NCBI GenBank assembly: GCA_026397035.1
Contig: JAPLVQ010000172.1
Coordinates: 1-14,955 of the forward strand
DNA from: Candidatus Iainarchaeum sp.
GTDB taxonomy: Archaea; Iainarchaeota; Iainarchaeia; Iainarchaeales; JAAZKV01
Length of the DNA: 14,955 nucleotides
Direction: 5' to 3'
Shown: positions 7,956 to 13,451 of the stretch, piece by piece
How the letters are laid out: each line of letters opens with the position of its first letter
Position numbering within the stretch: the stretch's first letter is position 1
Notes under the pieces: generated by a model
Seen by the model: only the letters and a program-made list of their open reading frames with translations
Databases searched by the model: none
Told to the model about the DNA's origin: nothing
Position numbers and translations under genes: made by a program

Positions 7956-9710
7956 ATGCAGGAAAGTAACACAATTCAGCTTGAAGATAAAGCTTCAAAC
8001 GATACTGTCCAAAAAAGTAATTCTTCTTCTCAAGGCAATGATAACTCCTTAAATAACAATAATTATTCATCTCAAAATAATAATTCGCCCCAAAATAATA
8101 ATTCATCTCAAAGCAACAGTAATTCTCAAATAATTAATTCTTTAGAGAATACTTTTTTAACTCCAAAAGACGAAGAAAATGCTTTTATTTTAAACAAAAA
8201 AATAGAGAATGAAGTTCTTTCTTTTGCTGAAAATATCGGATTAATGCTTTCAAAGTCGGCGGTGTATTTGCTTGTGAAAAATGATTGTTGGAAAGAAATT
8301 CTAAAAGAGCTTTTTAATGAAGGCGTTTTTTTTGTTGACCCCAATGTTCTTGAAAAAAAGCTTTCAAGGACTAAACTTGCGCAGGTAACTCAAGAAGTGG
8401 AAGTTAGAAAAGCTTCTTTTATTGCGCAGGCAAAAGACAGGGCGGCTACTTTTAGAGTAATGGAAGAATATGATGTTACTGGTAAGAGTAATTCTGAAGG
8501 AAAAGTTGATGATTTTTTGAGACTTTTTAGAAGTAAGTTTGAGTTGCTTTCATCAATGTTAAAAACAAGGCATAATCTTTCTCCAAAACCGATTAAGAGT
8601 CTTGCCGGCATTGCCGACAGGGAGAAAGTAGATGTTATTGGTATTGTAAACAAAAAGTGGATTACAAAAAAAGGACATACTGCTTTTGAAATTGAGGATC
8701 TTGAGGCAAAATGTATTGCGCTTGTAATGGAAAAAGAAAAGGATGTACAGGCTAAAGCCGAGAGGATTCTTGAGGATAATGTTGTTGGTATTAAAGGCAC
8801 TAAGTGGGGCAAGGATTTTATTATTATTAAAGAAGTTTATTGGCCTGATGTTCCAATTCGCCCCGCAAAGACTATTAATGATGATGTTTTTATCGGCGGG
8901 ATTACCGATATGCATGTAGGGAGTAAGCTTTTTTTTGAGGATCAGTTTAACAGGCTCCTTGATTATATTAACGGAAAAAATCTTTCACCTAAACAGCAGG
9001 AGAGGGTGGGGAAGATTCAATACTTGATGGTTACAGGGGATAATGTTGCGGGGGTCGGGGTTTATCCGGGGCAGTTTGACGAATTATTAATTAAAGATAT
9101 TTATGAGCAGTACGCAAAGTTTGAGGATTTAATGCTGCAAATTCCTGACTATATTCATACTTTTATTTGTCCGGGACAGCATGATGCGGTTAGGCGTGCC
9201 GAGCCACAGCCTGCGATTGATAAAGAATTTGTTCCGCGGCTCTCAAAGTTAAGAAATTTTCATTTTATTTCTTCTCCTTCCTGGGTGGATGTTGAGGGAG
9301 TGAAGAATCTTATTTATCACGGTCCGAGTGTTAATGACTTGATTAGTAGTGTTAATTTTCTTACAATGTCGGCTCCGCAGGAAGGAATGCTTGAGCTTTT
9401 GAAAAAGAGGGATTTAATGCCTAAATATGGCGGAAAGAACCCTTACGTTCCTGAAGGAAGAGATTATATGGTTATTAAGGAAGAGCCGGATATTATTTGG
9501 TTTGGGGATGTGCATCATAAAGGATACCTTTCTTATCGCGGAACCTCAATTCTTAATTCTGGCTGCTGGGAGGGCCAGACTGATTTTCAAAAAAAGATGG
9601 GCCATACTCCGACTCCCTGTATTTTTCCGACAATTAGCCTAAAAGACCGGGCAATTAGCGAGACGCATTTCTCAAAAGAGACTGTGGAAGAGGGAAAAAC
9701 TAGTGTCTGA
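7956..9710 (+). CDS. polB: DNA polymerase D small subunit DP1
   Basis: Small (exonuclease) subunit of the archaeal replicative polymerase PolD, 584 residues. Residues 1-65 are a disordered Asn/Ser/Gln-rich tail; 70-220 are mostly helical; an OB-fold region (about 222-310) begins VDVIGIVNKKW; the calcineurin-like phosphoesterase domain follows. Its motifs are ITDMHVGS (316-323), GDNVAGVGVYPGQ (361-373), PGQHDAVRRAEPQP (406-419), HG (455-456) and GDVHHKG (517-523), with the family signature TDFQKKMGH (542-550). Several positions differ from the usual GDxVDG, GNHD and GHxH of the family, so the 3'-5' exonuclease may be altered. The start is ATG 7956 with AGG upstream. The stop overlaps the DP2 start by eight bases, so the subunits are translationally coupled. 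Confidence 0.93.
   Translation: MQESNTIQLEDKASNDTVQKSNSSSQGNDNSLNNNNYSSQNNNSPQNNNSSQSNSNSQIINSLENTFLTPKDEENAFILNKKIENEVLSFAENIGLMLSKSAVYLLVKNDCWKEILKELFNEGVFFVDPNVLEKKLSRTKLAQVTQEVEVRKASFIAQAKDRAATFRVMEEYDVTGKSNSEGKVDDFLRLFRSKFELLSSMLKTRHNLSPKPIKSLAGIADREKVDVIGIVNKKWITKKGHTAFEIEDLEAKCIALVMEKEKDVQAKAERILEDNVVGIKGTKWGKDFIIIKEVYWPDVPIRPAKTINDDVFIGGITDMHVGSKLFFEDQFNRLLDYINGKNLSPKQQERVGKIQYLMVTGDNVAGVGVYPGQFDELLIKDIYEQYAKFEDLMLQIPDYIHTFICPGQHDAVRRAEPQPAIDKEFVPRLSKLRNFHFISSPSWVDVEGVKNLIYHGPSVNDLISSVNFLTMSAPQEGMLELLKKRDLMPKYGGKNPYVPEGRDYMVIKEEPDIIWFGDVHHKGYLSYRGTSILNSGCWEGQTDFQKKMGHTPTPCIFPTISLKDRAISETHFSKETVEEGKTSV
8025..8141 (+). repeat. Asn/Ser/Gln low-complexity tract at the DP1 N-terminus
   Basis: Residues 24-62 of DP1 are almost only Asn, Ser and Gln, built on a roughly six-residue unit QNNNSS / QNNNSP (CAAAATAATAATTC repeated). 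The DNA looks like a slippage-grown array. No fold is expected; it would be a flexible tail. Confidence 0.85.
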
Positions 9711-11850
9711 AAATATTTCTTCAAATGAACAGAATTCTAAAAGTATTCAATCAACTGAACAAAGCCCTAAAAATATTTCTTTAACTGAACAAAATCCCAA
9801 AATTACTCCTTTAATTGAACAAAATCATAAAAATATTCAATCAACCGAGCAAAACTCCAAAAATATCCCATTAACCAAGCAAAATTCCAGTATTATTCAA
9901 TTAACTGAACAACAATTCGAGACTCCTTTCACTGTTGAAGAGAAAGAAAAGCGCGGGTTAGTAAAAAAACTTTCCCCGCAGGAAATGATTTTGCAGAAAG
10001 TTCCTTTCGCCGCAGAGAAACATTTGCTGGATTATTTTGAGAGTATTCAAAAACGGACTCTTTCTGTTTTTAATGCGGCTCAGGCTGCAAGAAATAAAGG
10101 ACTGGATCTTGTTGATTCTGTTGAAGTTATTCCTGCAATGGATCTTGCGGATCGTGTGGAATCCATTATTGGTCTTTTTGGTCTTGCGAAAAGGTTTAGA
10201 GAAATTTTTAATGAATCAAAGGACAGGCGTAAAGCATATTTTCAGCTTTTTAGGGAGATTCTTGACCAGAAATGGTGGAAGATTCCTTCCGAACAGCAAA
10301 GGGTTGAGACAGGAATTAAGGCTTGTCTTTTAATTGAAACTGAAGGGGTTGTTGTTGCTCCGCTTGACGGGGTGCCAAAAGTTGAGATTAATTCTAACCA
10401 GGATGGAACAAAATATATTGATATTTATTTTGCGGGTCCGATTAGGGCTGCAGGCGGTTCTTCAACGGTTATTCCGCTTATTCTTGGGGATTTTGCAAGA
10501 ACTCATTTGGGGCTTGACAGATATAAGCCGACCCAAGATGAAATTGAGCGTTACGTTGAAGAGATTGGAATTTATCAGACGGATGTTATTTCGCGCCAGT
10601 ACATTATGAGTGATGAAGAAATTAGGATTATTATTACTGGTTGTCCTGTTTGCATTAACGGGGTTCAGACTGAGGAAGTGGAAGTTTTGGTTCACCGTGA
10701 TATTCCTCAAGTGAAAGGGAATAGGATTCGCGGCGGAATGGGACTTGTTGTTTCTGAAGGTTTAGCGCTTAAGGCGCTTTGGGTGATGAAGACTGCTAAA
10801 GATTTGGGGCTAAATTGGGATTTTTTAGAAAAAATTGTGAAAGTTGAAAAAACTCAGACAAAAATTGAAATTAAACCGAACAAAGCCTATCTAGACAGGC
10901 TTGCCGCAGGCAGACCGATTCTTGCGTATCCAAGTACTTGGGGCGGTTTTAGATTAAGATATGGAAGAGGACGAAATACCGGGATAATGGCTAAAGCAAT
11001 TAATCCTTCTACAATGATTTTGCTTGACGAGTTTATTGCTGTTGGGACTCACGGCCGAATTGAACGCCCTGGTAAAGCAACTCAGTTTTTTCCCTGCAAT
11101 ACTATTGATGGTCCGATTGTTTTACTTAAAGACGGGGAAGTTCGACGTGTTAATACTAAAGAGGAAGCAGAACTGTTAAAGGCAAGCGTTGAAAAAATTA
11201 TTTATATTGGGGATCTTCTTGCAACATTTGGGGATTTTAAAAAAAGCGCTCATCCGCTTATTCCTGTAGGTTATTGCGAGGAATGGTGGGTGCTTGATTT
11301 AAAAAAAGCGGTTGAAATAACTAAAAATAATGAGAAGCTTAAAGAACTGGGTTTAGAATATTTGCTTTCTTCAAATATTTCCGATTTGAGAAAGATTAGC
11401 GAGGACACAGCTCTTCTTCTTTCAAAAGAATTTAATATTCCGCTTCACTCGAACTTTTTACATTTTTACCGCGCGCTTAATCTAAAAGAAATTATTATGC
11501 TAAAAGAGTTTTTAAGTACTGGGCTCTTTGAAACTACAGTTTCTGAAAATAAGAAGTTTGAAGGTAATTCTCCGGAAATTAAAACCAGTAACTTAATTCT
11601 AAAAATTGAGAATAAACCCGAGGAAAAGAAGCTTCTTGAGAGAATTGGTGTTCCTCACAAAATCAGTGCTGGAAAAATTATTATTAGTGATTTTGCAAAA
11701 AGCCTTTTAATGACTTTTGGACTTGAAGCCAGCGCTGATTTAAAAGTTATTGTTACTTTGCGCGAAAATGGAGTCACTTCAGTACAAACCCAAACTGAAT
11801 CATTGGCGGACGAATGGGTCGGCCGGAACAGGCGAAGCCTAGAGAAATGA
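9703..11850 (+). CDS. polC: DNA polymerase D large subunit DP2, N-terminal part
   Basis: First part of the PolD large subunit, 715 residues. It starts at GTG 9703, overlapping the DP1 stop. Residues 9-68 are six decapeptide repeats; the conserved protein begins near 108 (LLDYFESIQKR). Landmarks are EGVVVAPLDGV (214-224) and FAGPIRAAGGSS (243-254), the family GPIRsAGGT segment, then the ITGCPVCINGVQTEEVEV segment and IRGGMGLVVSEG. Native DP2 sequence runs to about residue 700 (TQTES); the last 15 residues, LADEWVGRNRRSLEK, are an out-of-frame reading of the DNA that encodes the conserved GxRMGRPE motif in the next frame. The remainder of DP2 therefore lies in the overlapping downstream gene. 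This part alone lacks the catalytic aspartates. Confidence 0.92.
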   Translation: MSENISSNEQNSKSIQSTEQSPKNISLTEQNPKITPLIEQNHKNIQSTEQNSKNIPLTKQNSSIIQLTEQQFETPFTVEEKEKRGLVKKLSPQEMILQKVPFAAEKHLLDYFESIQKRTLSVFNAAQAARNKGLDLVDSVEVIPAMDLADRVESIIGLFGLAKRFREIFNESKDRRKAYFQLFREILDQKWWKIPSEQQRVETGIKACLLIETEGVVVAPLDGVPKVEINSNQDGTKYIDIYFAGPIRAAGGSSTVIPLILGDFARTHLGLDRYKPTQDEIERYVEEIGIYQTDVISRQYIMSDEEIRIIITGCPVCINGVQTEEVEVLVHRDIPQVKGNRIRGGMGLVVSEGLALKALWVMKTAKDLGLNWDFLEKIVKVEKTQTKIEIKPNKAYLDRLAAGRPILAYPSTWGGFRLRYGRGRNTGIMAKAINPSTMILLDEFIAVGTHGRIERPGKATQFFPCNTIDGPIVLLKDGEVRRVNTKEEAELLKASVEKIIYIGDLLATFGDFKKSAHPLIPVGYCEEWWVLDLKKAVEITKNNEKLKELGLEYLLSSNISDLRKISEDTALLLSKEFNIPLHSNFLHFYRALNLKEIIMLKEFLSTGLFETTVSENKKFEGNSPEIKTSNLILKIENKPEEKKLLERIGVPHKISAGKIIISDFAKSLLMTFGLEASADLKVIVTLRENGVTSVQTQTESLADEWVGRNRRSLEK
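9727..9906 (+). repeat. six tandem 30-bp units encoding decapeptides in DP2
   Basis: Six in-frame units of ten residues follow each other: EQNSKSIQST, EQSPKNISLT, EQNPKITPLI, EQNHKNIQST, EQNSKNIPLT, KQNSSIIQLT, then a final EQ. The consensus is EQNxKNIxLT. Units differ at third positions and some residues, so the array is not freshly duplicated. It forms an extension absent from typical DP2 proteins. Confidence 0.92.
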
Positions 11851-13451
11851 AAGGGAATCCTCACTTGCTTTTCCCAATCGGGTTAAAGGGGGGAAGTACT
11901 AGGAGCCTGAACAAGGCAATTGATTCTATGCATAATGAATCAAGAAAAGCTACTGTCGAGATTGCAGAATATTTTTGTCCGAAGTGCAGAAAAATCTCTA
12001 TTCAAAATACTTGTTTTTCTTGTAATGAGCGCGGGGTGCGTCTTAATTATTGCAAGCAGTGCAAAAAATCTGTTACGGGGGATACTTGTGGTATTTGCAA
12101 CTCAAAAACTGTTGCCGCTGGCGAGCATGAAATTGATCTTTTTGCTCTTACAGAACGCGCAAAACATTTTCTTGGAGAAAATATTCTTCCTGACCCGATT
12201 AAAGCTGTGCGTGGAATGATTGCTGAAGTTAAGGAAGTTGAGCCGATTGAGAAAGGAATTTTGCGCGCAAAGCATAATGTTCATATTTTTCGTGACGGGA
12301 CTTCCCGTTTTGAATTACTTAATGCGGTAATTACTCATTTTCGTCCAAGAGAACTTAATTTGAGCGTGGAGAAAGTTAAGGAACTGGGATATGTAATGGA
12401 TATTTATAGAAAAGATATTACTAGTATTGACCAGACTATTGAGCTTTACCCGCAGGATGTTGTGGTGAACGAGACTTGCGGTGACTGGCTTGTTAGAATC
12501 AGCCAGTTTACTGACGATTTACTTGAAAAGTTTTACAAGCTTCCAAGGTATTATAATGCTAAGACTAAAGAGGATTTAATTGGTGAAATTGTTCTTGGTC
12601 TTGCTCCTCACACGTCTGCTGCTGTGAATTCGCGCATTCTTGGTTATACTAAAGCTCGTCTTGGTTTTGGTCATCCTTACTTTGTTTGCGCAAAAAGAAG
12701 AAACGTGGATGGAGACCAGGATTCTTTAATGCTCTTAATGGATGCTTTACTTAATTTTTCTCATAAATATCTTTCTCATAAAAGCGGGGGCAGAATGGAT
12801 GCGCCGCTTGTTTTCACAATAATTGTTAATCCTTCAGAGGTTGATGATGAAGTACATAAAATGGAGACTTGCTGGAGTTTCCCGCTAGAGCTTTATGAGA
12901 AATCTCTTAATGTTTGCGAACCGAATATGCCTATTGAGACTGTAAAAGATAGATTAGGAAAATCTTCACAATATTGCGGGATTGGTTTTACTCATGACAC
13001 GGAGCTTTTTGATGAAGGACCAAAAATGTCTCGTTATGTTCAGCTCAAAACCATGGATGAGAAAATTCAGCGCCAGAACACTTTGCAGAAGAAAATTATG
13101 GCAGTGAATGCTAAAGATGCTCTTGAAAGAGTAATGGGTTCGCACTTCTTACCTGATATTATTGGTAACGCCCGTGCTTTCTCCCGCCAGACTTTTAGAT
13201 GCACTACTTGTAATGAGAAATACAGAAGAATTCCGCTTAGCGGTAAATGTTATAAGTGTGGTAAGTCAACTATTATTCTTACAATTCATGAAGGCTCGGT
13301 GCGTAAATACTTAAAAATCGCCCAGAATATGGCTCGTCAGGAGAATTTATCTCCTTACTTAATCCAGCGCCTCAATATGATTGAGAAAGAAATTAACTCT
13401 GTATTCAAGAGTGACAAGGTACAGCAAAAAAGCTTGTTTGAGTTCGCGTGA
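11814..13451 (+). CDS. polC: DNA polymerase D large subunit DP2, C-terminal catalytic part
   Basis: Second part of the PolD large subunit, 545 residues, carrying the polymerase active site. It begins at the Met of the conserved motif MGRPEQAKPREMK. Four CxxC pairs follow (55/58, 67/70, 80/83, 92/95), enough for two zinc sites. The catalytic motif NVDGDQDS (297-304) supplies Asp299 and Asp301. A C-terminal zinc site has Cys463/466 and 479/482. The protein ends in QKSLFEFA (538-545), a good match to a PCNA-binding PIP box. Frame -1 relative to the first part, it is open only from 11799, after a TGA at 11796-11798, so it could be made by re-initiation at ATG 11814, by frameshifting, or from a continuous gene if one base is missing here. 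ATG 11847 overlaps the first part's stop as ATGA. Confidence 0.93.
   Translation: MGRPEQAKPREMKGNPHLLFPIGLKGGSTRSLNKAIDSMHNESRKATVEIAEYFCPKCRKISIQNTCFSCNERGVRLNYCKQCKKSVTGDTCGICNSKTVAAGEHEIDLFALTERAKHFLGENILPDPIKAVRGMIAEVKEVEPIEKGILRAKHNVHIFRDGTSRFELLNAVITHFRPRELNLSVEKVKELGYVMDIYRKDITSIDQTIELYPQDVVVNETCGDWLVRISQFTDDLLEKFYKLPRYYNAKTKEDLIGEIVLGLAPHTSAAVNSRILGYTKARLGFGHPYFVCAKRRNVDGDQDSLMLLMDALLNFSHKYLSHKSGGRMDAPLVFTIIVNPSEVDDEVHKMETCWSFPLELYEKSLNVCEPNMPIETVKDRLGKSSQYCGIGFTHDTELFDEGPKMSRYVQLKTMDEKIQRQNTLQKKIMAVNAKDALERVMGSHFLPDIIGNARAFSRQTFRCTTCNEKYRRIPLSGKCYKCGKSTIILTIHEGSVRKYLKIAQNMARQENLSPYLIQRLNMIEKEINSVFKSDKVQQKSLFEFA

Follow-up and report, generated by a model that had tools for sequence, protein, structure and literature searches.

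The window examined here is contig JAPLVQ010000172.1 (G000:C79) in its full length of 14,955 nucleotides (nt), from the draft genome of an archaeon, Candidatus Iainarchaeum sp. (1,292,347 bases in 188 contigs, 77.4% complete). It carries genes for both subunits of the DNA polymerase PolD, the small subunit DP1 and the large subunit DP2, and the DP2 gene is spread over two open frames that are related by a -1 change of frame (Table 1). The original prediction had offered three accounts of this split: a genuine two-piece gene, a site of frameshifting, or an assembly error of one base. An assembly error was the best supported of the three by the comparisons described below, but the loss of a single base was not. 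We infer, rather than see directly, that the split is an artefact of a faulty assembly join, and we assign this reading a probability of roughly 85%.

The two frames were found where they had been placed. In the first, the TCA codon at 11800-11802 is residue 700, and the second is open after the TGA at 11796-11798 and reads IIGGRMGRPEQAK; both ATG codons proposed as starts, at 11814 and at 11847, are present within the overlap of the two frames (11799-11850). The N-terminal domain PF03833, the catalytic domain PF24846 and the presence of DP1 in the genome assign the gene to the DP2 family, and a NxDGDxD stretch, which we take to be the DP2 catalytic motif, is visible in the translation within the PF24846 region. 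The ATT at 11802 of the C-terminal part aligns with chain position 652 of PDB 6hms_B. DP2 is present as a single copy in G000, and the window contains no N.

Table 1. Features of the split DP2 locus in the window, and the frame breaks without N in its genome (G000)
Feature	Location	Strand	Remarks
DP1 (PolD small subunit), intact	7956..9710	+	directly upstream of DP2
DP2 (PolD large subunit), N-terminal part, open frame, 715 amino acids (aa)	9703..11850	+	GTG start; TGA 11848-11850; PF03833 (E 1.3e-87); PF24844 profile positions 3-255
Segment without family similarity in any frame, ~74 nt	11728..11801	+	replaces the conserved SGLxIxDKAGSF stretch
DP2, C-terminal part, -1 frame, open from ATC 11799	11799..13451	+	end of central domain; catalytic domain PF24846 (E 4.2e-118)
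ATG, Met of GGRMGRPE	11814..11816	+	candidate internal start of the C-terminal part
ATGA	11847..11850	+	later ATG overlapping the upstream stop
N-free break, DP2	window
N-free break, PorA-like gene	G000:C4 (L079) ~3145
N-free break, SpoIIM/DUF95-like membrane gene	G000:C6 (L081) ~440
N-free break, TsaD/Kae1	G000:C96 (L189) ~9590		TsaD confirmed by Pfam

The break proved to involve more than a shift of frame. The first frame had been described as DP2-like as far as the TCA at 11800-11802, but its match to the Pfam central domain, PF24844, ends at residue 681 (11745), and its tblastn homology ends at 11727 in three of the four comparisons with same-genus genomes, continuing weakly past that point in the fourth (G004); family homology in this frame therefore lasts to about 11727-11745. 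The PF24844 match restarts at the second residue of the C-half with profile positions 283-370, so that the 27 positions from 256 to 282 are unmatched and neither frame holds a complete domain. Aligned with 28 relatives whose DP2 is continuous, the window matched 5 of the 21 conserved columns among the 30 alignment columns to the left of the break, where each of the relatives matched 15 to 20 of 20 or 21; to the right its score was 28 of 30. The SGLxIxDKAGSF stretch, highly conserved in the relatives, is replaced in the window by NGVTSVQTQTES.

These results rule out the loss of one base. The original prediction had rested the whole split on one missing A, but the stretch from the TF motif to IGG is 83 nt long in the window versus 96 in G004 of the same genus, 13 nt shorter by a hand count, and the conserved motif is gone; with a length difference of this size, a single base cannot bring the lost motif back. 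Homology to the lost stretch surviving in another frame was also rejected: when a profile of that stretch was run against the six frames of the window, only three frames gave a reported score, negative in each case, and the other three went unreported, so that none scored above zero. In the shuffle control, at least ten of 200 shuffles scored above the window, and the same profile matched all five relatives tested, at 17.8 to 65.4 bits (the sequences from which it was built included two of these five). An intein scar was considered and rejected, as the Pfam scan listed no intein domain for either half. The frame change sits in the sequence where it was reported but is more than a one-base event, and the sequence as given has a real discontinuity here that goes beyond chance.

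In the relatives, DP2 is whole. All four same-genus genomes (G001-G004) carry a DP2 that is continuous across the site, in open frames of 1170-1191 aa, which speaks against a stable split by the test set beforehand, a continuous DP2 in all sister genomes. A DP2 match was found in all 53 genomes searched (the window's own and 52 others), and among the 21 other proteins that ranked highest in the search with the N-half, 20 measure 1169-1204 aa, while the remaining one, P0021 (813 aa), is labelled partial. Among the best 120 matches to each part, the nearest other database proteins have 74% identity to the N part and 82% to the C part, so that these lists yielded no second assembly of the species; the C-part search covered proteins up to about 954 aa. 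With P0147 as the query, a match to the C-half of DP2 was found in 81 of the 87 genomes of the phylum searched, and 16 stretches from 14 genomes, picked because the table hinted at a break or at the end of a contig, were inspected. Frame changes within a contig occur in the DP2 of G029 (at two places, each with NN), of G048 and of G060, and G061:C148 has an in-frame TAG in a DP2 otherwise aligned in one frame. Counting G000, DP2 is broken by a frame change or a stop in at least 5 of the 81 matching genomes, the rest of which were not inspected base by base. In G010, G038, G045, G051 and G052, the DP2 match is split near C-half residue 297-307 within open frames of 1354-1697 aa, presumably the pattern expected for inteins near the active site. 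Two fragment proteins, P0155 and P0219, have PF14890 among their listed domains. An 8,302-base contig of the G001 bin, G001:C33 (L047), holds a second, distant DP2 with 52% identity to the C part of the window, possibly a contamination of that bin.

We considered whether the two frames could encode a genuine two-piece DP2, in which an N-piece ending at 11850 and a C-piece starting from the ATG at 11814, or from a rare ATC or ATT at 11799 or 11802, would together form one catalytic core. Neither frame is damaged, family conservation persists in both outside the segment, the unmatched sequence ends sharply where the C frame opens, and candidate starts lie close by. Database C-half proteins that start at, or no more than about 30 residues before, the MGRPE motif (P0147, P0129, P0162, P0201, P0210, P0224 and P0226) would also fit. 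For P0147 (572 aa), a split or a frame break in its source gene is possible; its best match among the 87 genomes was 61%, and its own genome was not among them at high identity. However, DP2 is continuous in all four same-genus genomes, and the cut removes the conserved DKAGSF beside the motif, in the catalytic core. The candidate starts have Shine-Dalgarno-like matches of 3 nt, a length also seen at the majority of the other starts examined, and no other upstream mark. IGGR is still conserved in front of the ATG at 11814 although a start at that ATG would not require it, which suggests that this frame is entered further upstream. Other genes of the same genome are broken as well. In addition, the database N-only DP2 proteins examined end at scattered places and therefore give no pointer to a shared split site. 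A two-piece gene is accordingly very unlikely, and the same holds for the form of this account in which the tail of the N-piece has drifted, being no longer used or constrained, and a heterotrimeric PolD is peculiar to this species. Among the fragment proteins, P0079 (552 aa, N-part) and P0139 (587 aa, C-part) both have a longest contig of 7,311 bases and probably derive from one further broken DP2, in which the cut lies at least about 45 residues ahead of MGRPE.

Least probable of all the accounts is a programmed -1 frameshift that joins both frames during translation. The overlap of the frames at 11799-11850 makes such a shift geometrically possible, but none of the 20 zero-frame heptamers at 11790-11850 has the slippery X-XXY-YYZ form, as the original prediction had correctly noted, and the RNA fold downstream (11803-11870) is not unusual, with a z of -0.36 and 61 of 200 shuffles at least as stable, in a test that did not cover pseudoknots. 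Moreover, the family stretch would still be missing after a shift, and the four same-genus genomes need none.

The quality of the host assembly was compared with that of its relatives. A sample of 41 contigs from G000 contained 22 short internal runs of N (2-98 bases), which we took for probable scaffold gaps. In six of these 22 cases, 6-19 bases right at the run are identical on its two sides, like the ends of overlapping contigs that were not merged; seven further G000 contigs, all shorter than 3,000 bases, consist entirely of N. Frame breaks were counted in 61 G000 stretches (60 and the window; 449,478 non-N bases) with G001-G004 as references. A change of frame was seen in eight of 95 unique gene regions, at an N run in half of them and without N in the other four (Table 1), and at this rate split genes in G000 need the support of reads. 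The three broken genes on contigs C4, C6 and C96 we take to be PorA, SpoIIM and Kae1. Of two sister genomes, G002 had 1 broken region in 126, which mirrors the TsaD case, and G003 had 0 in 75. The Fisher p for the difference was 6e-4 for all breaks (8/95 versus 1/201) and 0.038 for those without N (4/95 versus 1/201), with the mirror TsaD case counted against the excess in both. The raised rate of broken conserved genes by which an assembly artefact was to be recognized was found in this assembly. Internal N runs numbered 38 in the 449,478 non-N bases of G000 and 0 in 497,435 of G002.

What was observed, then, is the local loss of family sequence, the continuity of DP2 in G001-G004, the N runs and the increased frequency of broken frames; it is very probable that the DP2 break itself arose from a faulty join and not from a mutation in living cells. 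Since the relatives have DP2 whole and other conserved genes are broken in the same draft, the split is most likely an assembly mistake. Two pieces of one continuous DP2 gene would have been joined at about 11728-11802 with the wrong sequence between them, and this faulty join would have shifted the reading frame overall. Most likely, DP2 in the living organism is a single uninterrupted protein of about 1,200 residues and acts with DP1 as a normal catalytic subunit of PolD.

The alternative in which the lesion is real would have a local deletion with replacement disabling DP2 in some cells, or in a strain that dominated the reads at this spot, so that the split gene is non-functional. This is improbable, albeit less so than a working two-piece enzyme. 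No N marks the DP2 site, and the other N-free breaks, which are short deletions in conserved genes, could also be true mutations. However, TsaD, a family present in 13 of 14 control genomes, has one locus in G000, where roughly 60 nt of a conserved stretch are lost without any N and the gene is broken. DP2 and TsaD are both single-copy core genes in G000, and a consensus sequence in which both are broken is hard to square with living cells; PMC6741145 calls PolD essential for archaeal DNA replication.

Several results weigh against a faulty join. The segment of about 74 nt is unexplained and comes without N, both DP2 halves are otherwise intact, and both fall near the same relatives in trees. 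The other three N-free breaks, in the PorA-like, SpoIIM/DUF95-like and TsaD genes, look like plain short deletions, unlike that of DP2, and when DP2 is left out the N-free excess falls to 3/94 versus 0/201 (Fisher p = 0.03). G003 also has N runs, 8 internal ones in 145,936 non-N bases, yet none of its 75 regions is broken, and N runs alone therefore do not set G000 apart. Lastly, P0147, a DP2 resembling the C-half alone, starts near the same motif on a contig of 387,661 bases.

The source of the segment was sought in several places. A second copy was not found in its own genome, where the best other match had an E of 0.09 over 21 bases; one 20-mer of the segment had no exact match in viral contigs, and no phage match was found. 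Against the fetched loci there were only matches at chance level (best translated E 3.4), one of them in secD of G004. These searches gave no support to a copy from elsewhere. A chimera of two distant lineages was likewise unsupported: in trees of the N part and of the C part with 28 relatives, the window falls near P0004, P0005, P0006 and P0010 in both, with fork supports of 88/84 and 93/96, which are below the starred level. Away from the break, both DP1 (7956-8200) and DP2 (9703-9930) begin with repeat-like extensions rich in N, Q, S and T, which lie outside the stretch aligned to relatives.

A search of the open-access literature by titles and abstract openings found no report of a split DP2 among the papers listed. 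If the split were real, it would mean that this polymerase can replicate a genome with its two-barrel core divided into two pieces. Split polymerases of family B are described in PMC4104785 for PolB3 of Methanobacteriales and for the PolB of Nanoarchaeum equitans, the latter with intein parts. As in those cases, an archaeal replicative polymerase appears in the window as two open frames; unlike them, the window polymerase belongs to a different family, no intein domain is listed for it, and the break is found in none of the four same-genus genomes. The DP2 of G029, a draft-genome gene with breaks at NN, resembles that of the window in that a conserved gene changes frame inside a contig, but the window break is without N.

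The last comparison is with the continuous DP2 of Pyrococcus abyssi (PDB 6HMS; NF003103/TIGR00354). PMC6355029 assigns R659 and K661 to the loop connecting the two catalytic barrels, which contributes to the cleft that binds the duplex. By position, these two residues probably fall in the MGRPEKAK motif. A cut at this point would pass through the catalytic core. Unlike the frame of the continuous enzyme, that of the window breaks before IGGRMGRPE and leaves 27 profile positions of the central domain unmatched; like the continuous enzyme, both parts of the window gene match the family in order over most of its length, and DP1 adjoins.

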